This document shows, piece after piece, positions 6,348-28,389 of a stretch of 56,687 nt of DNA (positions are counted from its first letter, which is position 1; each line of letters starts with the position of its first letter). The position numbers and the translations under genes were made by a program. The notes beneath the pieces were generated by a model that was not told where the DNA came from, did not search any database, and saw only the letters and a program-made list of their open reading frames with translations. Origin of the DNA: Chloroflexota bacterium (GTDB lineage: Bacteria > Chloroflexota > Dehalococcoidia > SHYD01); assembly GCA_016190485.1 (NCBI GenBank), contig JACPQN010000020.1, positions 1 through 56,687 of the forward strand. The letters are read 5' to 3'.

Positions 6348-7532
6348 ATGAGCATTCGAGGAAAGGCCGCCATCGTGGGCATCGGCGAGACGCCCCACCG
6401 CCGGGTGTGGCCGGGGCGCAGCATGTGGGGCCTCTGCGCCGAGGCTGCCGCGGAGGCCATTCGGGACGCCGGCCTGCGCCGGGAGGACATCGACGGCCTG
6501 ATGACCTTCGGCTTCGACGCGTTCCCATCGCCCATGGGGGAGTACATTGGCATCTTCCCCAGCAAGTTCGCGGTGGCCTCCGGGTTCTGGGGCGGCAGCA
6601 GCGGCTGCGCCCTCACCATCGCTGCCAACGTGGTGGCCAACGGTGGCGCCAACTACATCATGTTTGTGGGCGGCGGCGCCCGAGACCCGGGGAACCCCGC
6701 GGCCTCCATCTTCATGGGGGGTGGGACGCCGCCGCCCAGCGTCAACTCGGAGTGGACCGAGCCCTTCGGCCCCACCATCGCCGCCAACAACAGCTACGGC
6801 ATGATCTACACCCGCCACATGTACCAGTTCGGCACCCGGCAGGAGCAACTGGCCCACCTGGTGGTGAACCAGCGCTTCAACGCCCAGGAGAACCTGCTGT
6901 CAGCCTTCCGGGGCCAGCCCATCACCATCGCCGACGTGCTGAATTCTCGTTATGTCAACTATCCCCTGCACCTGCTGGAGTGCGTCATGCCCGTGGCGGG
7001 GGCCATCGCCTTCATCGTCACCAGCGCAGAGCGCGCCGCTACCCTCAGACATCCCCCGGCCTACGTCCTGGGCGCGGGCCTGGCCTCGGGCTACGCCAAT
7101 AGCTGGTTCAAGCCCGACATGGTGGAGACGCCGGTGCGCTACTCCGCCCAGAGCGCCTACGAGATGGCGGGCTATGCCCCCAGGGACATCCAGTTCGCCG
7201 AGTTCTACGACTGATACTCCATCCTGGAGGCCGTGTGCCTCGAGGACGCCAGGATCATGGCCAAGGGTGAAGTGGGGCCCTTCTTCGAGAGCACCGACAC
7301 CACCTACAAGGGGACTTTCCCCATCAACACCGACGGCGGCCAGCTCTCGGCCGGACAGCTCAACCCCGCGGGCGCCAGCGGCACCCAGCAGATCGTGGAG
7401 GCCACCCGCCAGATCCGGGGCCAGGCCGGCGTACGCCAGATCCCCCGGCACGACCTGGGCATCGTCAACACCTGAGGGGGAAGCCCGTCGCAGATGGCGA
7501 CGCTGATCCTGGGCAGCGCAGCCGCGCTGTAA
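6348..7532 (+). CDS. SCP2-thiolase-like protein with two in-frame TGA codons (candidate double selenoprotein), copy 1
   Basis: Read straight through TGA at 7212-7214 and 7473-7475, the frame gives 394 residues ending at TAA 7530, the normal length of SCP2-type thiolase-like proteins. The first TGA (residue 289) lies in EFYD-U-YSI, aligning with the Cys of the HDCF motif of SCP2-thiolases. The second (residue 376) lies in VNT-U-GGSPS, aligning with the C-terminal CxG/GG loop that carries the second catalytic Cys of classical thiolases. The usual N-terminal nucleophile position reads GGSSGC, so the standard Cys is replaced by Gly, and the catalytic GHP His region reads GQLNPAG. A hairpin follows each TGA. 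The next genes are a paralogue with the same two TGAs and a DUF35 partner. Selenocysteine is inferred; the sel genes are not in the window. Confidence 0.85.
7222..7246 (+). promoter_or_regulatory. SECIS-like hairpin after first TGA, copy 1
   Basis: Arms TCCTGGAGGC (7222-7231) and GCCTCGAGGA (7237-7246) pair with a single mismatch around a five-base loop CGTGT. The loop lies 18-22 nt after the TGA and has G as its second base. This fits the general layout of bacterial SECIS elements: an in-ORF stem-loop shortly after UGA with a small G-containing apical loop. Confidence 0.75.
7486..7502 (+). promoter_or_regulatory. SECIS-like hairpin after second TGA, copy 1
   Basis: Perfect 6-bp arms CGTCGC and GCGACG enclose loop AGATG, located 17-21 nt after the TGA at 7473. 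The position and loop size match the hairpin after the first TGA. The paralogue keeps the stem with a compensating base-pair change. Confidence 0.75.
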
Positions 7533-7551
7533 CCACTGCGCCCTTCATCGG

Positions 7552-7586
7552 AGGCCGCCAGGCACGCGCCCGGCGGCCTTCTTCGT
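7552..7586 (+). terminator. Terminator-like hairpin between the two thiolase genes
   Basis: AGGCCGCC (7552-7559) pairs perfectly with GGCGGCCT (7572-7579) around a 12-nt loop, followed by a T-rich tail (TCTTCGTTCC). It begins 20 nt after the TAA of copy 1. It may end or attenuate transcription before copy 2. Confidence 0.6.
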
Positions 7587-7715
7587 TCCATAGGCTCCCG
7601 CTATCTTGACACGCTGAGCTATACTGGGACTGCGTCTCTGCCTGGCGGTCGATGTGCCTCCGGGAGGGGCGAAGCGAACCGCTCTGGCAAGAAGTAACCG
7701 AAGGGGGTTAGTTCC

Positions 7716-8906
7716 ATGACCGTGAGCCTACGGGGGACCGCGGCCATCGTCGGCATCGGCGAGACCGAGCACCGGCGAGTGTGGCCTGGTCGCAGCATGT
7801 ATGGCCTCTGCGCCGAGGCGGCCGCCGAAGCCGTCCGAGACGCCGGCCTGCGGCGGGAGGACATCGACGGCCTCATCGGGTTCGGCCCCGTGGCCGCCGC
7901 GGGCCTGGCGGAGTACATCGGTATCCGCCCCGTCCACTATGGTATGGGGTCCAACTTCGCCGGCAGCAGCAGCGGCGGCGCCCTGGCCATCGCCACCGCC
8001 ATGGTGTCGGCCGGCGTGGCCAACAATATCCTGTTTGTGGGCGGCGGCGCCCGGGACCCCGGCAACCCCGATGCCTCCATCTACATGGGCGGCCCGGCGG
8101 GTGGCCCACCCAGCATGGCCTCGGAGTTCTACAACCCCTTTGGCCCTACCATCGCCGCTAACAACACCTACGGCCTGCTCTACACCCGCCACATGTACCA
8201 GTACGGCACCACCCAGGAGCAGATCGCGCACCTGCCGGTGAACCAGCGCTTCAACGCCCTGAAGAACCCGCGGGCGGCCTTCAAGGACCAGCCCATCACC
8301 GTGGAAGACGTGCTCAACTCCCGCTACGTCAACTACCCGCTCCACCTGCTGGAGTGCGTCATGCCCGTAGCGGGGGCCATCTCCTTCATCGTCACCACGG
8401 CGGAGCGGGCCCGCACCCTCAAGCAGCCGCCGGTCTACGTCCTGGGCTTCGGCGTGTGCCAGGGCTTCAGCAACAGCTACTACAAGCCCGACATGCTGGA
8501 GTCGCCCGCCCGCTACTCGGCGCCCGCGGCCTACAACATGTCCGGCTACGGGGTGAACGACGTCCAGTTCGCCGAGTTCTACGACTGATACTCCATCCTG
8601 GAGGCCGTGAGCCTCGAGGACGCTGGGATCTGCCCCAAGGGTGAGATCGGGCCCTTCTTCGCCAGCACCGACACCACCTACAAGGGTACCTTTCCCATCA
8701 ACACCGATGGCGGCCAGCTCTCCGCGGGACAGCTCAACCCCGCGGGCGCCAGCGGCACCCAGCAGATCGTGGAGGGCACCCGCCAGATCCGGGGCCAGGC
8801 GGGCGAGCGCCAGGTGGCCCGCCACGACCTCGGCCTGGTGAACACCTGAGGCGGCAGCCCGTCACAGTTTGTGACGGCAGTGCTGGGCTCGGCGGCGGCG
8901 CTGTAA
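7716..8906 (+). CDS. SCP2-thiolase-like protein with two in-frame TGA codons (candidate double selenoprotein), copy 2
   Basis: This is a 396-residue read-through product, a close paralogue of the preceding gene. TGA occurs at 8586-8588 (residue 291, in EFYD-U-YSI) and 8847-8849 (residue 378, in VNT-U-GGSPS), exactly matching copy 1; the frame ends at TAA 8904. Between the TGAs the two copies differ mostly by synonymous or conservative changes, which indicates selection for translation past the first TGA. The position of the classical nucleophile reads SSSGG, again without Cys, and the GHP His is absent (GQLNPAG). The DUF35 gene starts 12 nt downstream, the usual companion of thiolase-like enzymes that act as a two-protein complex. 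A TATACT hexamer at 7620-7625 could be a -10 box. The substrate is unknown. Confidence 0.85.
8596..8620 (+). promoter_or_regulatory. SECIS-like hairpin after first TGA, copy 2
   Basis: The same arms as in copy 1 (TCCTGGAGGC and GCCTCGAGGA) enclose loop CGTGA, 18-22 nt after the TGA at 8586. The stem is unchanged between the paralogues and the loop differs at one base. Confidence 0.75.
8859..8877 (+). promoter_or_regulatory. SECIS-like hairpin after second TGA, copy 2
   Basis: Perfect 7-bp arms CCGTCAC and GTGACGG enclose loop AGTTT, 17-21 nt after the TGA at 8847. Compared with copy 1, one stem pair is G-C there and A-T here, a compensatory double change that also alters an Ala codon to Val. 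This supports selection on the RNA structure. Confidence 0.78.
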
Positions 8907-8918
8907 GGAGAGCACACC

Positions 8919-9338
8919 ATGGCAGACTACAAGAAGCCCCTACCACGACCGGAGAACATCGAGCTGACCAAGCCCTTCTGGGCCGCGGCCAAGCGCCACG
9001 AGCTGGTGGTGCAGCGCTGCAAGCACTGCTCCAACTGGATCTTCTACCCCAGGGAGCAGTGCCCCATCTGCTTCTCCCAGGAGCTGGAGTGGGCCAAGGC
9101 CAGCGGGCGGGGGCGGGTGCACGCCTACACCGTGGTGTATCAGCCGGCGCACCCAGCGTTCCAGGACGAAGCGCCCTACACCTTTGCGGTGGTGCAATTG
9201 GACGAAGGGGTGCGGATGGCGACCAACATCGTGGGGATACCGCCGGACCAAGTGAAGGTGGACATGCCGGTGGAGGTAGCCTTTGACGATGTGACGCCGG
9301 AGTGGACCCTGATAAAGTTCAAGCCAGCGGGGACGTAG
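8919..9338 (+). CDS. DUF35 zinc-ribbon/OB-fold protein, thiolase partner
   Basis: The protein has 139 residues. The N-terminal rubredoxin-like zinc ribbon has Cys34, Cys37, Cys48 and Cys51 (CKHC and CPIC), followed by an OB-fold with GRGRVHAYTVV and the FAVVQLDEGVR strand typical of DUF35. Members of this family form complexes with SCP2-thiolase-like proteins, for example in steroid side-chain aldolases and in archaeal HMG-CoA synthesis, where they bind the CoA part. AAGGAG lies 8 nt before the ATG, and the gene starts 12 nt after the second thiolase-like gene. Either or both UGA-containing thiolase-like proteins are the likely partner. Confidence 0.9.
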   Translation: MADYKKPLPRPENIELTKPFWAAAKRHELVVQRCKHCSNWIFYPREQCPICFSQELEWAKASGRGRVHAYTVVYQPAHPAFQDEAPYTFAVVQLDEGVRMATNIVGIPPDQVKVDMPVEVAFDDVTPEWTLIKFKPAGT

Positions 9339-11861: not shown

Positions 11862-13049
11862 TTAGCGGGGCCGTTCCACCACCATGGCCACGCCCATGCC
11901 GCCGCCGCAGCACATGGTGGCCAGCCCGTAGCGGGCGCCACGCCGCTCCAGCTCATAGAGCAATGTCAGCACAATGCGGGCGCCGCTCATGCCCACGGGG
12001 TGCCCCAGGGCGATGGCGCCACCGTTGACATTGACCCGGTCCCAGTCCCAGCCCAGCTCCTTGCCCACGGCCAGGGACTGGGCCGCAAAGGCCTCGTTCA
12101 GCTCGATGACCTCCATGTCCTTCAGCTCCAGCCCGGCCCGCTGCAGCACCTTGCGGGTGGCGGGGATGGGGCCGATGCCCATGATCCGGGGCTCCACCCC
12201 CACCGCCGCGAAGGCCCTGATCACGCCCATGGGCTTCAGGCCCAGGCGCTGAGCCCGGCTCCGGGACATCACCACGGTGGCCGCGCCGCCGTCGTTGATG
12301 CCGGAACTGTTGCCGGCGGTCACGGAGCCGCCCTCACCCATGAAGGCGGGACCCAGGCGGGCCAGCCGCTCTGCCGTGGTGTCCGCGCGGGGATGCTCGT
12401 CTTTGTCCACTACCAGAGGCTCGCCCCGGCGCTGGGGAATAGTAATGGGCACGATCTCGTCCTGGAGCCTGCCCTCCGCCTGGGCCCTGGCCACCTTTTG
12501 CTGGCTCCAGGCCGCGAACTCGTCCATCTCCTCCCGGCTCACGTGGAATTGCGCGGCCACGTTCTCCGCGGTGATGCCCATGTGGCAGTTCTCCAGCGCG
12601 CACATGAGGCCGTCCTGCATCAGCGAGTCCAGCAGTTGGCCGTCGCCCATGCGGTAACCAAAGCGGGCCTGGGTCAGGAGATAGGGCGACCGACTCATGC
12701 TCTCGAAGCCGCCGGCCACGATGATATCGGCCTCCTCCAGGCGGATGGCCTGGGCCGCCAGGGCGATAGTCTTCATGCCGGAGCCGCAGACCTTGTTCAC
12801 GGTCATCGCGGGGGCCTGCACGTCTATCCCCGCGCGAATGCCTGCCTGGCGCGCAGGGTTCTCGCCCAAAGAGGCCTGGATCACGTTGCCCATGAGCACC
12901 TCGTCCACCTGGGCGCCGTCGATGCCCGCCCGGCGCATGGCCTCCTGGATGGCCAGCACCCCCAACTGGGTGGCGGGAATATCTGCCAGGGCGCCGCCAA
13001 AGGTCCCGATAGGGGTGCGCGCGCCGCTCACGATGACCGCTTCTTCCAT
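11862..13049 (-). CDS. Acetyl-CoA C-acetyltransferase (thiolase)
   Basis: The enzyme condenses two acetyl-CoA to acetoacetyl-CoA, or runs in reverse. It has 395 residues. The nucleophile Cys is in [10 protein letters not shown], the His in [10 protein letters not shown], and the second Cys in CCGGGMG, all canonical, in contrast to the UGA-containing thiolase-like proteins upstream in the window. The ORF can be extended 17 codons, but the ATG at 13049 gives the family start [15 protein letters not shown] and has AAGGAG 8 nt upstream. It is the last gene of the long minus-strand cluster, downstream of a PhaB-like reductase; together they would make 3-hydroxybutyryl-CoA for the ethylmalonyl-CoA-type route. 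Confidence 0.93.
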
Positions 13050-13170
13050 GACCCTCGCTCCTTCTATCCCAGCGGACGGCACTCTCCCTGCCGCCGCCAC
13101 GCTATACGCTTCCCGATCTCTATGGGCGGGTTCGCCCCGCCCAGCTTGAGTGCGACGCAGGCGCCCGGCG

Positions 13171-13967: not shown

Positions 13968-15647
13968 TCAGATCACCGTCGGCGGATGGTAGTCTCCAAA
14001 GACCTCCCGCATGGCGCCGCAGATTTCACCCAGGGTGGCGTAGGCCTTCACGGCTGCCAGGATAGGAGGCATCAGGTTGTCGGCGCCGCACGCGACGTCC
14101 TTCAGCTCCGCCAGCGCCCGCAGGGCTGCCCCCTGGTCCCGCTCCTTCCGGTAGCGGCGGAGGCGCTCCACCTGGGTCTGGGTCACCCTGGGGTCCACCC
14201 GGAAGATGGCGGGCGAGCGCTCCTCAGCGATCTGGAAGCGGTTCACCCCCACGATGATGCGGGAGCCTTCCTCGATTTCCTGCTGGTAGCGCACCGCGGC
14301 CTCCTGGATCTCCCGCTGGATGTAGCCGCTCTCCAGGGCGGCCACGGCGCCGCCCATCTGGGCGATGCGCTCCAGGTAGGCCCAGGCCTCCCGCTCCAGC
14401 CGGTCCGTGAGGTGCTCCACGTAGTAGGAGCCGGCCAGGGGATCCACCGTGTTGGCCGCACCCGTCTCGTAGGCGATGATCTGCTGGGTGCGCAGCGCGA
14501 TGCGCTGGGCGTGGTCGGTGGGGATCGCCAGGGCCTCGTCGTAGCAGGAGAGGGCCATGGACTGGACGCCCCCCAGCACGGCCGCCAGGGCCTGGATGGC
14601 GGCCCGGGTGATGTTGTTCTCGGGCTGCTGGGCCGTGAGGGTGGAGCCGCCGGTCTGGGTGTGGGTCCGCAGCATCCAGGAGCGGGGGTCTTTGGCGCGG
14701 TAGTGCTCCCGCATGAGCTTGGCCCACATGCGCCGCAGCGCCCGGTACTTGGCCACCTCCTCGAAGAAATCGTTGTGGGTGTTGAAGATCCAAGAGATGC
14801 GGGGCGCAAAGTCGTCGATGCTGAGGCCGGTCTTCAGGGCCTCGTCCACGTAGGCTTTGGCGTTGGCAAAGGTGAAGGCCATCTCCTGGACGGCGGTGCA
14901 GCCTGCGTCCCGCATGTGGTAGCCGCTGATGCTGATGGTGTTCCACCGGGGAACATGCCTGCTGCAATAGGCCATCAGGTCGGCGGCCAGGCGCAGCGAC
15001 GGTCCCGGCGGGTAGATGTACGTGCCTCGGGCGATGTACTCCTTCAGCACGTCGTTCTGGACCGTGCCCTCCAGCTTGTCGGCAGGAACGCCCTGCTGCT
15101 CACCCACGGCCACGTACATGGCCAGGAGCACGGCGGCGGGGGCGTTGATGGTCATGGAGCAGGACACCTGGTCCAGGGGTATCCCACTGAACATGGTCTC
15201 CATGTCCCGCAGGGAGTCGATAGCCACGCCCACCTTCCCCACCTCACCCTCGGCCATGGGGTGGTCCGAGTCGTAGCCAAGCTGGGTGGGCAGGTCGAAG
15301 GCCACGGAGAGGCCGGTCTGGCCCTGGCTCAGCAGGTACTTGAACTTCTCGTTGGACTCCGTGGCGGTGCCGAAGCCCGCATATTGCCGCATGGTCCACA
15401 GCCGCCCCCGGTACATGGTGGGCTGGATGCCCCGGGTAAAGGGATACTCCCCTGGGAACCCGATCTTCTCCCGGTAGCCAGCTTCGCCCGCATCCAGAGG
15501 GCTGTAGAGGCGCTCCACCGACAACGAGCTGGTGGCAAAGGGCTGGTCGGTGCGCTCGGGCCCCCGCTGGAGGGCGGGCTTGAGCGTCTTCTCCTCCCAG
15601 CGCTTCTTCGCCTGGGCTAGCTGCTCTATCTCGTGCTGTTCTAGCAT
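13968..15647 (-). CDS. Methylmalonyl-CoA mutase-type large subunit, catalytic domain only
   Basis: The protein has 559 residues and covers the substrate-binding TIM barrel of acyl-CoA mutases ([19 protein letters not shown], the [11 protein letters not shown] loop, [15 protein letters not shown]), but stops before the cobalamin-binding domain; no Asp-x-His-x-x-Gly region is present. The B12 subunit must therefore be encoded elsewhere. RQYAG agrees with methylmalonyl-CoA rather than isobutyryl-CoA mutases (which have RMFAG). Ethylmalonyl-CoA as substrate is possible from the neighbourhood. ATG 15647 has GGAGG 7 nt upstream and overlaps the stop of the retropepsin gene by 7 nt; an earlier frame extension is rejected. 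Confidence 0.9.
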
Positions 15648-16069
15648 CGTTGCGCCTCCCATCCGGTGCGCCACCCCGCGAGGGTTACGCCCAGAGCCAG
15701 GCTCTCCGCCGGCACTAGGCACTTGTTTGTCACATCTGCCGTGAGGCTGAAGGATTCCAGCGTCACTGCCCCGATCAGGGGCTGCGTTCCTTCGGGAGCA
15801 AAGACGACGAGGGTTGTCACCTGCTCTCCGTTCAGCTCAACCTTCAGCTCCGCCATCTCCCGGCGCACCCGGCTGCCATCGGCCAGGACAAAGCCCCGCT
15901 CTCGGTCCGGTTGCACACCCAGCCGTTGCAGGACCCCCGCGGGGACCCTGCTGAAGCCTGTCCTGAGCCCCGCCGAAGGGTTAGAGCCGGTATCCACCCA
16001 CGCTTCCACGGTCTCGGTGCGGTCACCGGACGGCGAGCGCAGGGTGAGCGGGTGGGTAAAGGTACCCAT
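15641..16069 (-). CDS. Retropepsin-like aspartic protease domain protein 1 (with repeat insertion)
   Basis: This 142-residue single-domain clan AA protein has the active-site DTGS (in EAWVDTGS), the flap-like [11 protein letters not shown] and [11 protein letters not shown] for the second half. Compared with the next gene upstream it carries eight extra residues straight after DTGS ([11 protein letters not shown] against TFT), which are encoded by a dispersed intergenic repeat. Its C-terminus overlaps the mutase start codon by 7 nt. Small bacterial retropepsin-like proteins of this sort are common in operons but have no established role. The insertion may have damaged activity. Confidence 0.8.
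15953..15988 (-). repeat. Dispersed repeat inserted in a coding sequence
   Basis: The segment carries CTGTCCTGAGCCCCGCCGAAGGG, which matches the CTGTCCTGAGCCTGTCGAAGG core of the family with a few changes (compare 22470-22494). It lies in frame within the first retropepsin gene, right after the DTGS codons, and is absent from the neighbouring paralogue. Confidence 0.75.
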
Positions 16070-16933: not shown

Positions 16934-17317
16934 GATACGGCTCCTTCGATGGTAAGTAGCTGCTCAGGCCCAGAGAGAAGGATGAGCAGACCGTTCAACA
17001 GGTCGCGCCCGACCAGCGAGTAGGTCCCGTCCCAAGACAGAACCTCCAACTCGCGTGCGGGAAGCTCAGGAAACTTCATGTTCACCAGATACACTTTGGA
17101 TCGGACAGCTACTCGCTCTATCCCGAGAATATCGGATCTCATCTAGCGGGACTAAGCCCAGTTCTCCCATCACCTGTTGAGGGACGACTGTCTGGTCTGC
17201 TCCGGAGTCAAGGAGGGCCAGTACGCTTCGGTCTGGAACCACGCCTGGAGCACTCAGCATCACCTCAACGACTGGCGCTGGAGGGTCAAAGCTCCCGTCA
17301 TAAGGATAGCTGCCCAT
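16930..17317 (-). pseudogene. Retropepsin-like aspartic protease 3, split by a frameshift
   Basis: The first part (from ATG 17317) encodes SVLALLDSGADQTVVP, a retropepsin active site, and runs to LGLVPLDEIR. The rest of a typical protein, with GIERVAVRSKVYLVNMKFPE and YSLVGRDLLN, continues in another frame and ends at 16930. Homology passes from one frame to the other around 17110-17140, consistent with a one-base insertion (or two-base loss). Both ends keep ATGA overlaps with the neighbours (HEPN gene upstream, MaoC downstream), so the gene was recently intact, or this is a sequencing error. Confidence 0.75.
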
Positions 17318-18341
17318 CAGCGTAGGAATGGTGTAGGGATTCTAACCACCCGGGGCGTCCTCTCTACTTTCGGCATGTATATCGCTTTGTATCCGTGCTT
17401 TGCATAGACCCGATGTGCTAAAGCAACTCGGTCAACGTCAGAATCCACGACTTTTTCATCGATGATAGCAATAAACTTGCCTTCGTAGCCCCTCAGCAAC
17501 TCATCACGGTGCCGCGCAAAGAAAGCGACGGCAGGTTCAAAGGAACCGGAGAGTGTCTGCTTGTCGAAGTGAGGAGTAGCTGGCTCAATTTCAAACCAGA
17601 ATCTTGTATTTCCTCCCAGCGGTGGGCCTTCCTTCTGAACCAATCTAACTCCTGCCGCCTGTGCAAACCGATTGCCTCCCAGTGCAGTGCAGATGAGTGC
17701 GTGGCGACTTTTCCAGCCTAGCTCTTTATGAATATCTCCTGCACGAACGGATACCAGCTTCTGTCCTGCCTGCCTGGCCGGTTTAATATAGCGCTCGACT
17801 ACATGGGCTCTCACGCTATCAGCGTAGGTCGGCCTTTCCTTGTGACTAGTTGATTTCCTGACCACGGGGCGTGCGACATCCGTTGCCTGTATGGCAACTG
17901 CCGCTTGAAATAGCCGAGGAACTAGCCTTGCCATCACATCGTCAATTTGATGGGCTTGTTCGTTCGCTGCCACGCATTCTAGCAGTTGTTTAGCAGTGCC
18001 CAACGCCAGAAAGGCCTCAATGGTGCTGAATGATCGTTGATGTGCCCACTTGTTCCGAACATCTAATAGACCAATCACCAGACCTCTCTTCGCCCGATCT
18101 CGGAGTTTGCGGCGGAATACCTCCTCCCAACGATGATCCATGATCTTGAGGAGCGCTTGAACATCGTAAGGCCGTTCAAAGGAGAATTGGTCACCCTGCG
18201 GAGCGCCTCTACGCAAACTCTCTTCAGCTTTCTCTGGCCAATCCATTCCGTATGCCGAAGACATCTCCCCCTCAACGAAGGGAGCAAGCCCTTCTCTCAA
18301 GAAGTACAAGCCCTTCGTCAGGAGGACAAGGTCTTCCAGCA

Positions 18342-18345
<4 letters not shown>
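17317..18345 (-). CDS. HEPN (Swt1-like) domain fused to a DUF5678-like domain
   Basis: The protein has 342 residues. The N-terminal 130 or so residues are helical, resembling Swt1-type HEPN domains, with VRNKWAHQ giving the R-x4-H motif of HEPN ribonucleases. The middle (about 170-260) is not recognised and may be a DNA- or RNA-binding segment. The C-terminus (YEGKFIAIIDEKVVDSD, then KHGYKAIYMPKV) matches DUF5678, a small domain often encoded next to retropepsin-like proteases. Here the protease gene follows with an ATGA overlap, and the start overlaps the acyl-CoA dehydrogenase stop in the same way. A toxin or stress-defence role is suggested by the HEPN motif only. Confidence 0.7.
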
Positions 18346-19511
<1,166 letters not shown>

Positions 19512-19515
19512 CGGG

Positions 19516-19734
19516 CTACTCGTACAGCTTAACGACCTTCACAGTGCCGGGCGGGCAGGCCTGGATGCAAAGGTCGCACAGGGTGCACTCGTCCAGGTTC
19601 TGCTCCACGATGGCCAGCGCGCCGTCCTGCCCGGTGGCGAAGATGTCCACCGGGCACACCTCCACCAGCTTTTTGACCAGGTCGGCCTGGCCTGCGACCT
19701 GGGGGTCTACCTCCACCCGGATGAACATCGCCAT
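19516..19734 (-). CDS. FixX-like ferredoxin
   Basis: The protein has 72 residues. A single complete [4Fe-4S] motif, CTLCDLCIQACPPG, lies near the C-terminus. The first half has only one Cys (VCPVDIFA) of the second motif, so it resembles FixX/ETF:quinone oxidoreductase-associated ferredoxins. GGAGG precedes the first ATG by 8 nt. Encoded just ahead of the acyl-CoA dehydrogenase, it is a likely electron acceptor or part of the chain to quinone. Confidence 0.85.
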   Translation of the reverse strand: MAMFIRVEVDPQVAGQADLVKKLVEVCPVDIFATGQDGALAIVEQNLDECTLCDLCIQACPPGTVKVVKLYE

Positions 19735-19813
19735 CAGGCGGCCTCCATGCTAGTTTGCTTGTCTTACCTGGCGGAAGCGGTGCAGCTTCACGGCGGTGAC
19801 ACAGGTCTCGCTC

Positions 19814-19842
19814 GCTCATCCTTCGACAAGCTCAGGATGAGC
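19814..19842. repeat. Dispersed hairpin repeat (GCTCATCCT...AGGATGAGC)
   Basis: Perfect 9-bp arms flank TCGACAAGCTC, in the 155-nt gap between sucD-like and ferredoxin genes. This is the best-preserved copy of the family in the window. Confidence 0.8.
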
Positions 19843-19889
19843 GCTCGTAGCGCAACGAGGCTCCTACGAGTGGCACCGCTGGCGCATCC

Positions 19890-20786
19890 TTACCCCAGCC
19901 GCTCCCGCACCAGCCGTGGGATCTCCGACACCTCCTCGGCCACCGAGATGCCCGCCTCCCGCATGCGGCGGATCTTCTCCGCCGAGGTGTCGGCCTTACC
20001 CTCCACGATGGTGCCGGCGTGGCCGAAGCGCATGCCGGGCATCTGGTCCATGAAGCGGCCCGCCATGAAGGCCACCACCGGCAGCCTGCTCTTCTGCTCC
20101 CGTAGGTAGGTGGCGAGCTGGGCCTCCATGGTGCCGCCCGGCTCCGAGTAGATGACGATGGCCCGGGTCTCGGGGTCGGCCTCGAAGAGGGGCATGAAGT
20201 CGGCGTAGGTGTTGCCGATGATGGGGTCGCCGCCGATGCTGATGGCGGTGCTCTGGCCCAGCCCCGCGGCGGTGAGGGTGTTGGCGATCTCCGTGGTCAT
20301 GCCGCCGCTGCGGGACAGCACGCCCACGGGGCCGGGCATGTAGGCCTTGCGGGTATCCTCCGCAGGGCCACCCACGCCCCCCACCTTGGACTTGTGGGGC
20401 GAGATGATGCCCAGGCAGTTGGGGCCGATGACCCGGGCGCCGTACTGGTCCGCCAGCTCAATGAGCTGCACCGTCTCGTTGCGGGGCATGCGCTCGGTGA
20501 CGATGACGATGAGCTTGATGCCCGCCTCAATGGCCTCCATGGCCGCGTCGGCGGCGAAGGCGGGCGGCACCGTGACCACCGAGGCGTCCACCCGCATCCG
20601 CTCGGTGATCTGGCGCACGGTATCGAAGACGGGAACGCCGTAGACGTCCCGCCCCTTGCGGCCCGGCGTCACCCCGCCGACTACCTTGGCCCCGTAGTTC
20701 AGGCACTCCCGGGTCACGTTCACGGCCTCCCGGCCCGTGATGCCCTGGATGATGAAGGTAGTGTTCTCGTCGATAAGGATGGACAT
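19890..20786 (-). CDS. CoA ligase (ADP-forming) alpha subunit, SucD-like
   Basis: The protein has 298 residues. The N-terminal CoA-binding Rossmann domain has IIQGITGREA and GVTPGRKG; GPNCLGIISP and the phospho-His motif GHAGTIVEGK are intact. The family includes succinyl-CoA synthetase and malate-CoA ligase (MtkB). ATG 20786 has GGAG 6 nt upstream and gives the family start MSILIDENT. Its place in a cluster with malyl-CoA lyase homologues raises malate or a C5 diacid as an alternative substrate. It pairs with the beta subunit encoded upstream. Confidence 0.88.
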   Translation of the reverse strand: MSILIDENTTFIIQGITGREAVNVTRECLNYGAKVVGGVTPGRKGRDVYGVPVFDTVRQITERMRVDASVVTVPPAFAADAAMEAIEAGIKLIVIVTERMPRNETVQLIELADQYGARVIGPNCLGIISPHKSKVGGVGGPAEDTRKAYMPGPVGVLSRSGGMTTEIANTLTAAGLGQSTAISIGGDPIIGNTYADFMPLFEADPETRAIVIYSEPGGTMEAQLATYLREQKSRLPVVAFMAGRFMDQMPGMRFGHAGTIVEGKADTSAEKIRRMREAGISVAEEVSEIPRLVRERLG

Positions 20787-20801
20787 GTTATGCTCCCCGT
20801 G

Positions 20802-20834
20802 CCGCCCGCCCTTCGACAAGCTCAGGACGGGCGG
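20802..20834. repeat. Dispersed repeat, CCGCCCG...CGGGCGG variant
   Basis: The TTCGACAAGCTCAGG core is enclosed by 7-bp arms of different sequence from other copies. The arms change while remaining complementary. Confidence 0.7.
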
Positions 20835-20847
20835 AAAACATATCTCC

Positions 20848-20876
20848 GCTCATGGTGAGCTTGTCGAACCATGAGC
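20848..20876. repeat. Dispersed hairpin repeat (GCTCATGG...CCATGAGC), second copy
   Basis: This is identical in arms and loop to the unit at 5376-5404, 13 nt after another family member. It lies between sucC-like and sucD-like genes. Confidence 0.75.
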
Positions 20877-20885
20877 AGCGTTGTC

Positions 20886-22091
20886 CTACACAGTCTGCAT
20901 CTTGGCCACGGCCCGACGCGCCGCCTCGTCCATGGACACACTCCGGTCGTAGTACTCCACGCCGTACTTGCGGAGGATCTTGAAGCCCTCGCCCTCCCAT
21001 GAGCCGGGGATGCGGAAAATCGCGATCTTCTCCGCGGGGTCGTAGCCCGACTCCACCACGCCCTTGATGACGCCCCGGGCCACGATGTCCACCCGGGTGT
21101 TGCTCACCACGTTCATCATCACCGCGATCTTGTCCACGCCCGGCTTGGAGAGGATGAGCTTGGTCAGCTCGCAGGCCTTGCTGACACTGGGATTGCCGCC
21201 GATCTCGCAGTAGTTGGCGGCCCTGCCGCCGTACTTGCGGACGGCGTCGAAGAGGGTGAGGCTGCCTCCGCCGGCGCCGATGATCAGCCCCAGGTCGCCG
21301 TCGAACTCCACGATGCGGCCGGCCACGCCCCGGGTGTCCTGAGCGTCGATCTGGGCGCCCCGAATCTCGAAGGGCGTCGGCGGCCGGGCCTGCCGGGTCT
21401 CCTCCCGCCCGATGCCCAGCTCCTGGAGCAGCGCCCCCTGGCGGTCCCGGGCGTCCTCGTCCATGTCCACGTGGCAGTCCAGGCAGACGAAGCTACCGTT
21501 CTCCAGCCGGGCCAGGGGATTGATCTCCGCCAGGGTCAGGCCGTGGGCCAGGAAGGCCCGGGCCAGCCTGCTGAGGATGGGCGTCAGGGCCGTGAGCTCG
21601 TTGCCGGTGATGCCCAGGGAGGCCACAACCTCCTTCATCTTGTAGTCGGAGACAGGGCGCAGGCTGGAGAAGGTGGCCTGGGTCAGGTGCTCCGGGTGCT
21701 GCTCCGCCACTTCCTCGATGTCGATACCGCCCATGTCGCTGAAGATAATGGCGGGCCGCTTGGCCAGGGTGTTGTAGATGACGCCGGCGTAGTACTCCTT
21801 GGCCACGGGCGCCTTCGGCTCGATGAGCACCGAGCGGGGCACCTGGCCGCTGATGGGGAGCCGGAGGATCTCCGCCGCGGCCTGGCGCGCTTCCTGGGGC
21901 GAGCTGGCGAACTTGACGCCGCCCGCCTTCATGCGGCCGCCGCTGAGCACCTGGGACTTGAGCACCACCGTGCCGCCCAGCTCGCCCGCGGTGGCCGCGG
22001 CTTCCTCCGGGGTGGACGCCACCCGGAAGCTCGCCAGGGGCACCTCGTACCGGCGGAGGAGGGTCTTAGCTTCGTACTCGTAGAATCGCAT
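20886..22091 (-). CDS. CoA ligase (ADP-forming) beta subunit, SucC-like
   Basis: The ATP-grasp protein has 401 residues. The N-terminal FYEYEAKTLLRRYEVP, VVLKSQVLSGGRMKAGGV, GGIDIEEVAEQHPE and INPLARLE are the ATP-grasp and metal segments; GAGGGSLTLFD and NYCEIGGNPS belong to the C-terminal CoA-ligase domain shared with succinyl-CoA synthetase. It differs noticeably from housekeeping SucC (for example LSGGRMKAGGV), so malate, citramalate or another diacid is possible. It is followed after two dispersed repeats by the alpha subunit. Confidence 0.87.
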   Translation of the reverse strand: MRFYEYEAKTLLRRYEVPLASFRVASTPEEAAATAGELGGTVVLKSQVLSGGRMKAGGVKFASSPQEARQAAAEILRLPISGQVPRSVLIEPKAPVAKEYYAGVIYNTLAKRPAIIFSDMGGIDIEEVAEQHPEHLTQATFSSLRPVSDYKMKEVVASLGITGNELTALTPILSRLARAFLAHGLTLAEINPLARLENGSFVCLDCHVDMDEDARDRQGALLQELGIGREETRQARPPTPFEIRGAQIDAQDTRGVAGRIVEFDGDLGLIIGAGGGSLTLFDAVRKYGGRAANYCEIGGNPSVSKACELTKLILSKPGVDKIAVMMNVVSNTRVDIVARGVIKGVVESGYDPAEKIAIFRIPGSWEGEGFKILRKYGVEYYDRSVSMDEAARRAVAKMQTV

Positions 22092-22119
22092 ATCAAGCTC
22101 TTTCGTGAGGAAAACTTTG

Positions 22120-22422
22120 CTATCTATTTCTGCTGCGCTGCTCTAACCAGCGCTTTAAAGAACGCTGGCTTTCACCCAACGGGTAACCGGCCAGTAAGCC
22201 CTCAATACTGATATCCTCATCAAGGTCCGGCCAGTGTATTCCCTCGCCTCCGCCGCTCAGTTGCCAGTTGTGACGCGCTTTCAGCGTGCCATGGAGGAGC
22301 CGGGGAAACCATCCGATGGGCACCGAGAGAGTGCGTCCATCCATAAGATCGACGGTTAACGTGTCCTCCGTGACTCGAACGTCTTTTACCTGCTCCCCTG
22401 GGTTAATGTCCGAACCTCGCAT
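22120..22422 (-). CDS. DUF2442 protein, copy 1
   Basis: The protein has 100 residues from the ATG at 22422 (frame open four codons further). VTLTVDLMDG-type core (TVDLMDGRTLSVPIGWFPRLL), HWPDLDEDISIEGLL and a basic tail are characteristic of DUF2442, usually found beside a DUF4160 gene in a putative toxin-antitoxin-like pair. The DUF4160 partner is missing here; a second copy at 22977 retains it. The first part is nearly identical at DNA level to that copy, so this is a duplicate. Confidence 0.8.
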   Translation of the reverse strand: MRGSDINPGEQVKDVRVTEDTLTVDLMDGRTLSVPIGWFPRLLHGTLKARHNWQLSGGGEGIHWPDLDEDISIEGLLAGYPLGESQRSLKRWLEQRSRNR

Positions 22423-22469
22423 CCCAAGCCTCAAAAGGTCCTCTTACGTTCAGTCCCCAATACCACCGT

Positions 22470-22494
22470 TCGTCCTGAGCCTGTCGAAGGACGA
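22470..22494. repeat. Dispersed repeat copy (TCGTCCT...AGGACGA)
   Basis: Seven-base complementary arms flank GAGCCTGTCGA, in the space between the first DUF2442 gene and the GIY-YIG gene. Confidence 0.65.
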
Positions 22495-22506
22495 GCTACA
22501 CAGTAA

Positions 22507-22851
22507 TTACCCTATTGTTGCGTCACCCGCCGATGTGCTGGATTGTTGCCGAGCCCTTGCGAGCTGTTTTATACGGGCCCTGTCTCCTTGAATAAGCGCT
22601 TCCTTCTTGCTCCTTGACCAACCCTTGATTTGCCTCTCCCGCTCAAGAGCTTCGATCCGTGTGGAAAAATAGTCAGCGAAGACAAGCCTAACGGGTTTTC
22701 GGCCTTGAGTATATCCAGGAACCAGGCCCGCGTCGTGTTCCGCTATTCTCTTTTCAAGATTGTCAGTATGGCCCACGTAGTATGAGCCGTCTGAGCAATG
22801 GAGAATGTAGACGTAAAACGTTGATCGCCTCTTTACTTCGGCCCCGTTCAT
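22507..22851 (-). CDS. GIY-YIG superfamily nuclease-like protein (UPF0213-like)
   Basis: The protein has 114 residues from the ATG at 22851. FYVYILHCSDGSYYVGHTDNLEKRIAEH holds the paired VYI and YVG strands and the conserved Arg, and RIEALERERQIKGWSRSKKEALI contains the conserved Glu and basic helix. Such small proteins are common and mostly uncharacterised. The open frame continues 14 codons upstream, but those residues (STSSGQACRT) come from a dispersed repeat, so the later ATG is preferred. It lies between two DUF2442 duplicates. Confidence 0.85.
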   Translation of the reverse strand: MNGAEVKRRSTFYVYILHCSDGSYYVGHTDNLEKRIAEHDAGLVPGYTQGRKPVRLVFADYFSTRIEALERERQIKGWSRSKKEALIQGDRARIKQLARARQQSSTSAGDATIG

Positions 22852-22891
22852 GGTTCGACAAGCCTGTCCCGAGCTTGTCGAAGGGCTCACC
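22851..22891. repeat. Two abutting dispersed repeat units upstream of the GIY-YIG gene
   Basis: GGTTCGACAAGCCTGTC and GAGCTTGTCGAAGGGCTCACC lie back to back in opposite orientation. They are fused to the start of the GIY-YIG reading frame. Confidence 0.65.
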
Positions 22892-22976
22892 ACGAATGGG
22901 CATATCTCATTCCTTCAAAGCCAGAACTCTTTTCCCGTGACGCGAGCTGCTCGGCCGACTCGGCGTCCAGTTTGCT

Positions 22977-23249
22977 CTACCGGACAGGCGCCGACCGGTG
23001 CGCCGCCGGAGCGCCACGCAGCAAGCCCTCCGTGCTCAGGTCTTCGTCAATGTCCGGCCAGTGGATGCCATAACCTCCGCCACTTATTTTCCAGTTAGCC
23101 CTCTGTTCCGGTGTGGCATGAAGAAGGAGCGGAAACCACACGATTGGCACGGAGATGGTGCGGCCATCCATAAGATCAACGCTTAATGTATCTTCGGTGA
23201 GGTGCACGTCCTTCACCTGCTCGCCTGGGTTAATGTCCGAACCTCGCAT
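22977..23249 (-). CDS. DUF2442 protein, copy 2
   Basis: The protein has 90 residues from ATG 23249, with GGAGG 6 nt upstream. SVDLMDGRTISVPIVWF and HWPDIDEDLSTEGLL match copy 1. The C-terminus (RGAPAAHRSAPVR) differs and looks replaced by unrelated low-complexity sequence. It overlaps the end of the DUF4160 gene by about 20 nt, the usual arrangement for this pair. Confidence 0.8.
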   Translation of the reverse strand: MRGSDINPGEQVKDVHLTEDTLSVDLMDGRTISVPIVWFPLLLHATPEQRANWKISGGGYGIHWPDIDEDLSTEGLLRGAPAAHRSAPVR

Positions 23250-23466
23250 CCCAAGCCTCCCGTAGTCTTTCCTCATGCTCGTTGAGCAACTGCTCTATCC
23301 TTCGCAATTCTGAGGGGCTGAAGCCGAAATTTCGCGCGAGAGCGATTGGAGACAACCAGAACTTTGCGCTCTGATTGTCTCGATCAACATGAACGTGCGC
23401 CGGCTCGTTTGGTTCGTGGCTATGGAAATAGACACGATAGGGGCCACTCCTGAGAATCGTTGGCAC
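23230..23466 (-). CDS. DUF4160 protein
   Basis: The protein has 78 residues. MPTILRSGPYRVYFHSHEPNEPAHVHV is a textbook DUF4160 start, with the conserved His cluster, and the C-terminal helix LRRIEQLLNEHEERLREAW is retained. It is paired and overlapping with the downstream DUF2442 gene. Function unknown; the pair resembles toxin-antitoxin organisation. It sits in an otherwise metabolic cluster, probably as an insertion. Confidence 0.88.
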   Translation of the reverse strand: MPTILRSGPYRVYFHSHEPNEPAHVHVDRDNQSAKFWLSPIALARNFGFSPSELRRIEQLLNEHEERLREAWDARFGH

Positions 23467-23506
23467 ATCGGCTTCCTGGTTACGTTTCTCGTTTCAAGCA
23501 TACTTC

Positions 23507-24535
23507 TTAGCCGCGACGCCCCATGGCCGTCAGAATATCGTACCCTGTCACCGCGGCGGACTTGGCGGCCTGCTCCCCGAGCCAGCCTGCATCCAGCACC
23601 CCAGCCTGCACCGCTTTGGCAAGCTGCATCAGCAGCCCCTTGATGGTGGCCTCATCGTGGAACTCCCCCGTCTCGGGCACCACCAGCGCACCGCCGCCCG
23701 CCTTGTGGTAGTACTCCAGGGTCAGCTTGGCCCTGGCGATCTGCTCGTCGTCCGGGGTGAAGACCTGGTTGGCGATCTCCGCCTGCTGGGGGTGGATCAC
23801 CCAGGCGCCGTCCATCCCCAGGTCCCGGGCGCCGATGTTTTTCTGCCGCAGATCCTCCCGTATCCTCGCCGCTTCATCCTCCGGCGTGTCGCGGCGGATA
23901 AGGGTCAGGAAGGCGTTGTCGATGGCGTGGAGACCTGCGGCCTTGGCGGCCACCACCGTGGCCTGCTTGGCGTAGTGAAAGTTCTGGTTCTGGTTGGCCA
24001 CGTTCTCGTTGACCCCCAGGGCTGCTGCGAAGTCGGCGATGCCGAAGATCAGCCCCACCATCCGGTCCGATGCCGTGGCGATCTGGTAAGCGTTGACGAC
24101 GCCCAGGGGCGTCTCGATCAGGGCCTCGACCTGCACCCGGGTGGTCCAGCCGCCCTGCTGCTCCAGGTCCTCCAGCAGCCGGGCGAGATAGACGATGTCC
24201 TCCGGCCCGTTGGTCTTGGGGAGGATGATGCCGTGGAAGCGGTCGGGCGCACCCAGCATGATGGCTTGCAGGTCGCCCAGGAAGAATTTCGACTTGATGT
24301 TGTTAGGCCGGATGGTGACGACTTTCAGGCCGAAGTCGATACTGCTCAGGGCCTCTACCATGGTCTGGCGGGAGGCCTCGCCCTTGAACTCGTAGGGGCA
24401 GGCGTCCTCGAAGTCGGCCATTACGTGGTCCACCGGCGCGCCCGCAGCGTTCTGGTGCATCCGGAGCTGGTGGCAGGGGTAGGTCAGCTCGGTGCGGGGG
24501 ATCACAAAGCGGCGACCGCCGTCGATGACGTACAT
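23507..24535 (-). CDS. HpcH/HpaI-family CoA lyase, Chloroflexus Mcl-like (malyl-/methylmalyl-CoA lyase)
   Basis: The protein has 342 residues. Conserved parts include HVMADFEDACP (metal-site Glu-Asp), VTIRPNN, IILPKTNGPED, ALIETPLGVVNA with the second metal Glu, and AWVIHPQQAEIANQVFTPD. Length and C-terminal organisation resemble the Chloroflexus malyl-CoA/methylmalyl-CoA/citramalyl-CoA lyase more than short CitE. It would cleave methylmalyl-CoA to propionyl-CoA and glyoxylate and condense glyoxylate with acetyl-CoA. GAGGAG lies 5 nt before the ATG. The exact substrate range is inferred from the neighbouring ccr and hydratases. Confidence 0.8.
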   Translation of the reverse strand: MYVIDGGRRFVIPRTELTYPCHQLRMHQNAAGAPVDHVMADFEDACPYEFKGEASRQTMVEALSSIDFGLKVVTIRPNNIKSKFFLGDLQAIMLGAPDRFHGIILPKTNGPEDIVYLARLLEDLEQQGGWTTRVQVEALIETPLGVVNAYQIATASDRMVGLIFGIADFAAALGVNENVANQNQNFHYAKQATVVAAKAAGLHAIDNAFLTLIRRDTPEDEAARIREDLRQKNIGARDLGMDGAWVIHPQQAEIANQVFTPDDEQIARAKLTLEYYHKAGGGALVVPETGEFHDEATIKGLLMQLAKAVQAGVLDAGWLGEQAAKSAAVTGYDILTAMGRRG

Positions 24536-24559
24536 GGGACTCCTCGGGTACTTCTGGTA

Positions 24560-25432
24560 TCAGCTCTGGGGCTGGCGCTCCAGCGCCTGGAGGATGGCCA
24601 GGGCCCGGGTGTAGACCGGCCAGTCCACCACGGTCCCCTCCAGGGCCACCGCGCCCACTCCCTGGCGCTCTCCCTCCCGGTAGGCCACCACCACCTTGCG
24701 GGCGAACTCCAGCTCCTCCTCCGAGGGTGAGAAGATGCGGTTGACCACCGCCACCTGGTCCGGGTGGATGCAGTACTTGCCCCGGAAGCCGATGCTGCGG
24801 GCGAAGGCGGCGTCCCGCTCCAACTGCTCCTGGTCTCTAAAGTCCATCTCCGGGGTGTCCAGGGCCAGCACCCCCGCTGCGGCGCAGGCGATGGCCAGGG
24901 CGTAGCGTGCCCACTCCACCTCCTTGCCGCCCTTGGTGCGCATGACCCCCATGCTGTTGGCGTAGTCCTCCGCGCCCAGCGAGGCGCCGATCACCCTGGG
25001 GGACGCCCGCAGGATCTCCTCGGCGTGCAGCAGGGCCTGGGGCGACTCGATCCAGGGGAGGAGCTTGACGTGGCCGGCGGCCTGCCCCCGGGTCTGCTCC
25101 AGAAAGGTGAGATAGGCGGCTACCTGCCGCAGCACCTCCACCGAGTGGCACTTGGGCAGGCTGACGGCGTCCAGGCCATCACCGACCACCGCCTCCAGGT
25201 CCGCCTCCAGCAGGCCGGTGTCCAGCCCGTTGACCCGCACCACCAGCCGGTAGCCGGTGCGGGGCATGGTGGGGATGGCGCTCCGCACCATCTCCCGGGC
25301 GCTGGCCTTCTCCGCCGGTGGCACCGAGTCTTCCAGGTCCAGACACACCGCGTCGGCCCCGGAGCTGGGCGCGCGCTCGATGAAGCGCTGGCGGACTCCG
25401 GGGACAAAGAGCAGGCTGCGGATGAACTCCAT
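24560..25432 (-). CDS. HpcH/HpaI aldolase family, CitE-like lyase
   Basis: The protein has 290 residues, the standard CitE-like length. SLLFVPGVRQRF, VCLDLEDSVPPAEK, VRVNGLDT, SLPKC, LPWIESPQALLHA and KYCIHPDQVAVVN are all present, with the Glu and Asp metal ligands. Possible roles are (S)-malyl-CoA thioesterase (a CitE-like protein used in the ethylmalonyl-CoA pathway), citramalyl-CoA lyase, or a second malyl-CoA lyase. It lies 24 nt upstream of the Mcl-like gene and 18 nt downstream of a MaoC gene, clearly in the same unit. Confidence 0.85.
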   Translation of the reverse strand: MEFIRSLLFVPGVRQRFIERAPSSGADAVCLDLEDSVPPAEKASAREMVRSAIPTMPRTGYRLVVRVNGLDTGLLEADLEAVVGDGLDAVSLPKCHSVEVLRQVAAYLTFLEQTRGQAAGHVKLLPWIESPQALLHAEEILRASPRVIGASLGAEDYANSMGVMRTKGGKEVEWARYALAIACAAAGVLALDTPEMDFRDQEQLERDAAFARSIGFRGKYCIHPDQVAVVNRIFSPSEEELEFARKVVVAYREGERQGVGAVALEGTVVDWPVYTRALAILQALERQPQS

Positions 25433-25450
25433 GGGGTGGCCCGCTGTATG

Positions 25451-25888
25451 CTAGGGGGCGACGTAGGGATAGGCGTCCAGCAGCACCACGGCCTCACCGG
25501 TCATAAGCTGCTCGTCCCTCTGGTTGACGCAGGTGGTGCTCACCGTCACCCTGCGGCGCTCCGGGTCCACCGCGGTGACCTCCAGGCTGGCGGTGATCGT
25601 GTCGTTCACGAAGACGGGACGGGTGAAGCGCAGGTTCTGGCTCAGGTAGACCACGCTCTCGTTGGGGCCGGCCAGCTTGGTGCCCAGGGCGGCCGAGACG
25701 ATGCTGAGGGTCAGCACGCCGTGGGCCACCCGGTGGCCGAAGCGGGTGCGGGTGGCGTAGGCCTCATCCAGGTGAATGGGTTGGACGTCGCCCGATACCC
25801 GGGCGAAGTCCCGGATGTCCTGGTCCGTCACCTGTTTGGAAAAGGTGACCTTCTGCCCCACGCTGACACTCAGTCCGACATCTGCCAT
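25451..25888 (-). CDS. MaoC-family hydratase 2, PhaJ-like (R)-enoyl-CoA hydratase
   Basis: The protein has 145 residues from ATG 25888 (GAGGAG 6 nt upstream). VTDQDIRDFARVSGDVQPIHLDE holds the hydratase-2 Asp and His; RVAHGVLTLSIVSAALG is the following helix. This matches PhaJ-type enzymes, which interconvert (R)-3-hydroxybutyryl-CoA and crotonyl-CoA, exactly the step between the PhaB-like reductase and ccr. The long upstream extension of the frame is a shadow of ccr. It is the second gene of the unit, 26 nt after ccr. Confidence 0.87.
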   Translation of the reverse strand: MADVGLSVSVGQKVTFSKQVTDQDIRDFARVSGDVQPIHLDEAYATRTRFGHRVAHGVLTLSIVSAALGTKLAGPNESVVYLSQNLRFTRPVFVNDTITASLEVTAVDPERRRVTVSTTCVNQRDEQLMTGEAVVLLDAYPYVAP

Positions 25889-25914
25889 CCTGCGCTCCTC
25901 TCGCCGTGACTCTG

Positions 25915-27168
25915 CTAGGGCAGGCCCGTCAGGCCCTGGCGCGGCGCGCCCACCATACAGACCATGTTGCCACCGGAAGCCCGGTTCTCGTGCATGAGCT
26001 GGTGGGCCTGCCCGACCTCCTGGAAAGAGAAAACCTGGCCCAGGCAGGGGTCTACTGCTCCCTTGGTCAGCAGCTCGTTGTAGGCAGCGCTCTGCTGGTC
26101 GTTGGCAAAGTGAGAGCCCTGGAACCGCTTCTGGCGCATCCACAGGTAGCGCAGGTCCACGGTGGCGGTGTAGCCGGAGGTGCCCGCGCAGATCACCACC
26201 ATCCCGCCGGTGTCGCACACGAAGATGGAGGTGGGAATAGTGTCCTCCCCGGGATGCTCAAACACGATGCGCGGGTTCTTGCGCTCGCCTATCGCCTCCC
26301 AGAGGGCCCGCCCGAAGGCCCGCACGCTCTGGCTCCACCTGTTGTAGGCCTCGGTATCCTTCCAGTGGGGCATCATGCCCCAGTGGTCGAAGCTGCGGCG
26401 GTTGATGTAGCCCTTGGCCCCCAGCTTCTTGCAGTACTCGCCCCGCTCGTCGCTGGATACCACGGCCACGGGGACCCCGCCGAAGTGCTTCACGAGCTGG
26501 ATGGCGATGGAGCCCAGGCCACCGGAGCCACCCCAGATGAGCACCACGTCGCCGGGGCGGACGGCATGCTCGGGCCAGCCGGTGAGCATGCGGTAGGCGG
26601 TGGCGCCCACCAGTATGGACGCGGCGGAGGCCTCCCAGGTCAGATGAGGCGCCTTGGGCAGGCACTGGTGGTCCTGCGCCTTGCAGAACTGGGCAAAGCT
26701 GCCCCAGTTGGTCTCGTAGCCCCAGATGCGCATGCTGGCGCTGAGGCAGGGGTCGCCGCCCGCGAGCACCAGGGGGTCGTTGCGCTCCCACACACCGCAG
26801 TGGATGACCACGTGGTCCCCCACCTTGACGTTGCGGGCCTCGCTGCCCACGGCGTAGACGATGCCCGAGGCGTCGCTGCCACCGATATGAAAACTGGCCG
26901 GCGGGTCGTCCCGCTCGTGGAGCTGCACCACGTCCAGCGGAGACCCCAGGGCAGCCCAGACGTTGTTGAAGTTGACGCCAGCGGCCATCACGTAGACCAG
27001 CACCTCGTCGGGCTTCAGCGGGGGGACGTCTACTTGCTCGATCTGGAAGGCGTCTTTCGGCTCCCCAAAGCGTTCACGTCGAATAGTCTGAGCGTACATG
27101 TGCTTTGGCACATGGCCAAGGGGAGGCGCCTCACCAATCTCGTAGATATCCTTCATCTGAGTCGTCAC
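25915..27168 (-). CDS. ccr: Crotonyl-CoA carboxylase/reductase
   Basis: The enzyme reductively carboxylates crotonyl-CoA with NADPH and CO2 to ethylmalonyl-CoA. It is a 417-residue MDR protein. The N-terminal [15 protein letters not shown] is nearly diagnostic for Ccr, and GVNFNNVW (CO2-site Asn), [14 protein letters not shown] (Tyr/Phe-Glu pair), [12 protein letters not shown] (NADPH loop), [10 protein letters not shown] and QGSHFAN (His) are present. GTG at 27168 with GGAGGT 5 nt upstream is preferred over the ATG four codons later. It is first in the long minus-strand unit and divergent from a LysR gene that may regulate it. Confidence 0.93.
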
Positions 27169-27318
27169 GTCGCACCTCCGACAGCGGGGTGTGGATAAGG
27201 CCTCGTCTTCCGGGAAAAAGAGCGCGCTCGTCTCCGTTTACACGGGGGGAGACTGCGCAAGGGACGGCGCGTTCCCCCCCCTTTTTTGCCGAGCTATCAA
27301 TGTTTTTGTAAAGTCCCC

Positions 27319-27347
27319 TAGACTGTAGCACGAGGTTTCTGTATAAT
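27319..27347 (+). promoter_or_regulatory. Sigma-70 type promoter for the LysR gene
   Basis: TAGACT (27319-27324) and TATAAT (27342-27347) are separated by 17 nt. The -10 box is perfect and the -35 matches TTGACA at four of six positions. Transcription would start near 27354, about 60 nt before the LysR ATG. Confidence 0.7.
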
Positions 27348-27373
27348 GCAACCTACTGGGGGTTATGCTGGAT

Positions 27374-27388
27374 ATAGATCATCTCTAT
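27374..27388. promoter_or_regulatory. Candidate LysR-type operator (T-N11-A dyad)
   Basis: ATAGA-TCATC-TCTAT is a perfect 5-bp dyad with the T-N11-A arrangement of LysR boxes. It lies between the presumed transcription start and the ATG of the LysR gene, where binding would permit autoregulation and possibly control of divergent ccr. Confidence 0.5.
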
Positions 27389-27414
27389 GGAGGTGGTCAG
27401 CGGAGTCGGGGGTC

Positions 27415-28320: not shown

Positions 28321-28389
28321 CTTGGGCAACACCCCTCCCTTGTGCTAAAATAACCAGAAACTCCTCAATTCACACCAGGGAGGCGGGCC

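Follow-up and report, generated by a model that had tools for sequence, protein, structure and literature searches.

Two neighboring genes in a Chloroflexota genome very probably encode thiolase-fold proteins with two selenocysteines each

How are four in-frame TGA codons read in two neighboring thiolase-like genes of a Chloroflexota bacterium? The DNA analyzed here, called the window below, is the whole stretch of 56,687 nt that makes up positions 1-56,687 of contig JACPQN010000020.1 (assembly GCA_016190485.1; Chloroflexota bacterium, Dehalococcoidia, SHYD01). Copy 1 (6348..7532, plus strand) specifies 394 aa and copy 2 (7716..8906, plus strand) specifies 396 aa; both end at TAA and both match Pfam Thiolase_C_1 (E 3.9e-42 for copy 1). 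In copy 1 the plus-strand TGA codons lie at 7212..7214 (site 1, residue 289, motif YD-U-Y) and 7473..7475 (site 2, residue 376, motif VNT-U-GG), and in copy 2 at 8586..8588 (site 1, residue 291) and 8847..8849 (site 2, residue 378), also on the plus strand. The two predicted selenocysteine (Sec) positions are 87 residues apart in the chain, in two separate catalytic loops, and the two proteins share 74-75% identity. The original prediction held that both genes are open through these codons to their TAA, with Sec as the best reading. Translation confirmed the open frames and showed no further disruption in either copy once TGA is read as a residue, and the TGAs sit at homologous positions, in columns shared far beyond chance.

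A species-genome scan found 60 close loci, labeled Chloroflexi, Dehalococcoidia or SAR202 with the exception of one oddly labeled MAG. Wherever the label is reliable all family members are from Chloroflexota, and the family occurs in ocean and groundwater bacteria. A MAG labeled Bordetella parapertussis carries a Chloroflexota family gene (L062) and is probably mislabeled or mixed. The host genome has two further copies, a third with both TGAs (L022, G000:C113:19346-20530, minus strand) and a fourth that has TGA only at site 2 and Cys at site 1 (L024, G000:C124:21262-22473, plus strand). In a phylum-wide draw of 400 genomes (E <= 1e-120), one TGA-bearing genome was found besides the host. After removal of duplicates the non-redundant genes comprised 30 TGA/TGA, 30 Cys/TGA and 4 Cys/Asn forms; L063 and L112 were excluded from the family counts, their reported match ranges being out of frame. 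Site 2 is TGA in 60/60 non-redundant full-length rows of the TGA-bearing set, and no other in-frame stop was found in the full-length rows of relatives. That the genes are pseudogenes or carry sequencing or assembly errors, as might be supposed of MAGs in which a normal stop codon interrupts a frame, has a negligible probability and is refuted by conservation across independent assemblies, the same two TGA positions recurring in about 50 genomes with frames otherwise intact and with strong amino acid conservation after the TGAs.

Site 1 is always Cys or Sec where site 2 is Sec, and Ser, Ala or His occur there in non-Sec relatives. At site 2 the relatives carry Sec or Asn/Thr/Ser-type residues. 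Trp was never found at either site in the aligned family rows. The expectation that the TGA columns would hold Cys or Sec in homologs was thus borne out at site 1 (30 Cys rows) and not at site 2, where Cys was never found among all relatives aligned. Cys homologs are common for selenoproteins and not required, Sec decoding being independent of them. A protein tree built without U letters implies three changes at site 2 and at least nine exchanges of Sec and Cys at site 1. Two Cys/Asn forms, L032 (genome G001) and L062, are nested beside the clade of the window genes in genomes that have selB; both Sec were apparently lost in them.

The search for a Sec machinery called for by the original prediction found it complete in the host genome (2.89 Mb, 83.6% complete): selA (456 bits), selB (365 bits), selD (390 bits) and a tRNA-Sec (selC) with anticodon UCA (72 bits), called by both Rfam and ARAGORN. 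The host selD (L010, G000:C74) has an in-frame TGA of its own in the context ASCAGUAAKF, the usual SelD Sec site. Across the 48 genomes with TGA forms selB is present in 41, and selA in three of the seven others by hand count; the four assemblies that have neither are probably incomplete. selB scored above cut-off in 130/197 genomes of the class generally, so that its co-occurrence with the TGA forms is necessary but weak evidence. Cys at site 1 in relatives would also agree with UGA being read as Cys, and a suppressor tRNA for Cys or Trp, or a general read-through, was therefore weighed. It is very improbable: the tRNA-Sec has the only UCA anticodon among the host tRNA genes examined, which include no UGA suppressor (tRNA-Trp has CCA and tRNA-Cys has GCA), Trp is absent from both sites, and the mRNA hairpin constraint described below exists only where TGA is present. 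TGA is also a genuine terminator in 2/60 family genes. L034 is one of them, so that UGA serves as both Sec codon and terminator within one gene; L034 and L053 (G025:C107) form a tandem pair of double-TGA genes. ARAGORN called a tRNA-Pyl (CTA) at G000:C92:6103-6177 (minus strand, L163). It was rejected as a second recoding system, with no pyl genes nearby and an anticodon loop (CTTCTAA) that reads UCU, which makes it probably a tRNA-Arg(UCU).

SECIS-like hairpins follow all four TGA codons on the plus strand. The site 1 hairpins lie at 7222..7246 in copy 1 (loop CGUGU, starting 17 nt past the TGA) and at 8596..8620 in copy 2 (loop CGUGA). The site 2 hairpins lie at 7486..7502 in copy 1 (CGUCGC-AGAUG-GCGACG; z -2.5 against synonymous shuffles) and at 8859..8877 in copy 2 (CCGUCAC-AGUUU-GUGACGG; z -3.4, none of 150 synonymous shuffles being as stable). 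One example of the site 1 hairpin of the TGA forms is UCCUGGAGGC-CGUGU-GCCUCGAGGA, whose loop contains GU and begins about 17 nt past the TGA; it agrees with the published bSECIS model. Some site 2 loops depart from the published consensus. The median stability of the site 1 hairpin is -9.2 kcal/mol in TGA forms vs -2.7 kcal/mol in Cys forms (Mann-Whitney p = 2e-11). Synonymous codon identity, a measure independent of any folding model, points to the same places. TGA/TGA genes are most constrained over the five codons +5 to +9 past site 1 (0.91, rank 1 of 369), with the next separate peak at +4 past site 2. For Cys/TGA genes the value at the site 1 block is only 0.33 (rank 318 of 378), and the site 2 block ranks first.

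At site 2 the hairpins exceed synonymous shuffles in stability (mean z -2.4; 39/60 at p <= 0.05) and contain compensatory pairs, with 18 cells changed on both sides. Their paired cells amount to 74% vs at most 51% for slid structures. A single fixed site 2 helix was rejected, since the hairpin is present in more than one register and such a helix accounts for only 74% of cells. The site 1 hairpins do not surpass their synonymous shuffles (mean z -0.9), since the encoded residues themselves favor the hairpin; the case for site 1 therefore rests on the contrast with the Cys forms and on the codon constraint. Scanned against Rfam, the window matched no RNA family, and hence no curated SECIS family. 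No reading other than Sec insertion explains at once the machinery, the switching between Sec and Cys, and hairpins that the Cys forms lack. We conclude, on computational grounds, that all four UGAs almost certainly direct Sec incorporation, and that the proteins are very probably double selenoproteins with Sec at two catalytic-loop positions. The SelB/tRNA-Sec system would decode each UGA as Sec, directed by the in-frame hairpin with its loop about 16-18 nt downstream.

What kind of protein carries the two Sec? NCBIfam gave matches to thiolase-domain subfamilies only, all below cut-offs, and no selenoprotein model was matched. An AlphaFold model built with Cys in place of each Sec reaches a mean pLDDT of 90.7 and a pTM of 0.92. 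Among PDB structures it matches the CtSal-DUF35 aldolase 9MYR best (TM 0.89, 38% identity), and a single-sequence search likewise ranks 9MYR first. Catalysis in CtSal uses Tyr302 as base and Cys304, within Y-D-C-Y, as acid; the variants C304A, C304S and C304H have no activity. The thiol is tuned by Gln347 and Gln352, the oxyanion hole includes Gly391, and where thiolases have their nucleophile CtSal has a Gly (PMC12329534). By sequence alignment CtSal Tyr302/Cys304/Gln347/Gln352 correspond to family Y287/U289/Q332/Q337, so that site 1 aligns to the catalytic Cys304. The oxyanion-hole Gly391 corresponds to G378 and the Gly at the nucleophile position to G82, and the oxyanion-hole Gln161 aligns to Ala146. 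The column of the nucleophilic Cys (Cys89 of Z. ramigera) is occupied by Gly82, invariant in the family, and the column of the thiolase GHP His by Gln337. Of the description of these genes as SCP2-type thiolase-like, the fold stands and the activity does not. With the nucleophilic Cys absent and the aldolase CtSal the nearest structure, "thiolase" names the fold here and not the activity.

Site 2 is two residues before the oxyanion Gly378. In another thiolase-like protein a structure-based alignment equates an NGG motif with the CxG of Z. ramigera thiolase, Asn standing for the catalytic Cys, which is numbered both 378 and 379 in that paper (PMC3406046). The family motif is U-G-G, with N-G-G in non-Sec relatives, and site 2 would thereby be the second catalytic Cys position of classical thiolases. 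We used this published structure-based alignment for the CxG register because sequence aligners slip by one to two residues. A canonical thiolase with a NEAF motif, and with CCGGG as its CxG site, is encoded in the window at 11862-13100 (minus strand); a methylmalonyl-CoA mutase gene (13968-15722, minus strand) adjoins it. The thiolase was tried as a register guide and rejected on account of the same slippage. In SCP2-thiolases the CxG Cys is missing and the HDCF Cys takes its role (PMC7682436). With the CxG register taken from the published alignment, the two acid/base Cys positions of the superfamily, in the CxG and HDCF loops, would both be Sec, or Cys and Sec, in the family. As read from the alignments, Sec would occupy both alternative homes of one catalytic residue, site 1 that of HDCF and site 2 that of CxG. 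Closeness in space is expected from this, and with it contact between the two Sec.

A gene for a DUF35/ChsH2-type partner with a Zn-ribbon and an OB-fold (8919..9338, plus strand; C-x2-C-x10-C-x2-C; Pfam OB_ChsH2_C 9e-25, zf-ChsH2 2.6e-12) directly follows copy 2. A same-strand DUF35 gene is found at 54/58 related loci, with a second thiolase-like copy in between at one of the 54; of the four exceptions, three lie where a contig ends. The upstream genes encode a homocysteine S-methyltransferase/MTHFR, FolD and SfsA, and no clear clue to the substrate came from the upstream or downstream genes. No steroid side-chain genes were recognized beside the window genes, and no redox partner gene was seen there. 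Elsewhere in the window, genes for acyl-CoA dehydrogenase, ATP-grasp, two HpcH/HpaI aldolases, MaoC and zinc dehydrogenase (18342-29463, minus strand) form a stretch for acyl-CoA metabolism. A Swt1-like HEPN domain protein at 17317-18345 (minus strand) is possibly the product of an RNase/defense gene.

We propose that the product is a Sal/Ltp2 aldolase-type enzyme of the thiolase fold, paired with the DUF35 zinc-ribbon/OB subunit. Sec289 would take the place of the catalytic acid Cys in the YDCY motif and Sec376 would stand at the CxG acid/base Cys position of classical thiolases; with Tyr287 as base, the Sec289/Sec376 pair would act as a low-pKa proton shuttle. Cleavage or formation of a C-C bond on a CoA thioester by this route is, in our judgment, somewhat favored. 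We put at about even the broader reading of a C-C lyase/ligase with two Sec in one active site, whether these form a diselenide redox pair, act together as selenol acid/base or provide a selenolate nucleophile that forms an acyl-selenoester.

Sec376 may instead be an accessory residue, for metal binding, structure or substrate contact, with site 1 alone catalytic. The Asn, Thr or Ser at site 2 of non-Sec relatives indicates that the fold needs no acid/base there, and C/N forms occur among close relatives (L032, L062). This is nonetheless unlikely, given the invariance of Sec at site 2 throughout the TGA-bearing set and an mRNA constraint there that stays where site 1 is Cys, both of which point to a strong need for it. 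The main functional rival is that the Sec are real but form a redox couple, a Sec289-Sec376 diselenide or a Cys-Sec selenenylsulfide, in an oxidoreductase or a redox switch. A couple is suggested by the restriction of site 1 to Cys or Sec, never Ser, Ala or His, whenever site 2 is Sec, and by the closeness expected of two alternative homes of one catalytic Cys; redox proteins also make up most of the known selenoproteins (PMC13188914). Against it, the family keeps the majority of the CtSal catalytic residues and the DUF35 partner, and no redox partner gene was seen beside the window genes. We hold the redox couple to be a tentative possibility, and keep the aldolase-type C-C chemistry as the preferred reading.

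A 2026 review lists 119 prokaryotic selenoprotein families with no thiolase-fold member (PMC13188914), and none is mentioned in the main text of the deep-Sep paper. No report of a selenium-containing thiolase was found in the open-access literature without preprints, and an unlisted report is possible. The family would add an enzyme superfamily absent from the current list, in Chloroflexota (the SAR202 cluster and relatives) that are abundant and little understood. Its genes would be cut short by automatic annotation in which UGA ends the frame. Because site 1 alternates between Sec and Cys, and only the Sec forms have the hairpin, the family offers a clean natural experiment on how SECIS elements work. 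The catalytic Cys has changed loops within the superfamily, so that proteins with Sec in both loops allow a test of Sec vs Cys in non-redox chemistry. A C-C lyase/ligase with two Sec, if true, would take Sec beyond the usual Trx-like or metal redox proteins.

Among known systems, CtSal, the bile-acid side-chain aldolase of Comamonas testosteroni (9MYR, PMC12329534), resembles the family in fold, in the YD-[C/U]-Y motif, in the Gln347/Gln352 equivalents, in the Gly at the nucleophile position and in its DUF35 partner. It differs in having Cys304 and Thr389 where the family has its first and second Sec, and the oxyanion Gln161 where the family has Ala; its DUF35 is fused to MaoC and has a C3H1 zinc motif, whereas the family DUF35 is unfused and C4. 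The steroid aldolase Ltp2-ChsH2(DUF35) (6OK1) shares the fold, the DUF35 partner and the lack of a nucleophilic Cys, but has YDHF and a second catalytic Tyr344 in place of YDUY and Gln. Classical thiolases (e.g., Zoogloea ramigera) and SCP2-thiolases belong to the same superfamily, with site 1 in the HDCF/NEAF loop and site 2 in the CxG loop; compared to them the family lacks the nucleophilic Cys (Gly82) and the GHP His (Gln337) and would carry Sec at both alternative acid/base positions. Bacterial selenoproteins with two Sec (e.g., FmdB family UxxU and MbdU; PMC13188914, Table 1) are alike in their in-frame UGA, downstream hairpin and SelA/B/C/D, while the family described here has a thiolase fold with its Sec 87 residues apart in two loops.
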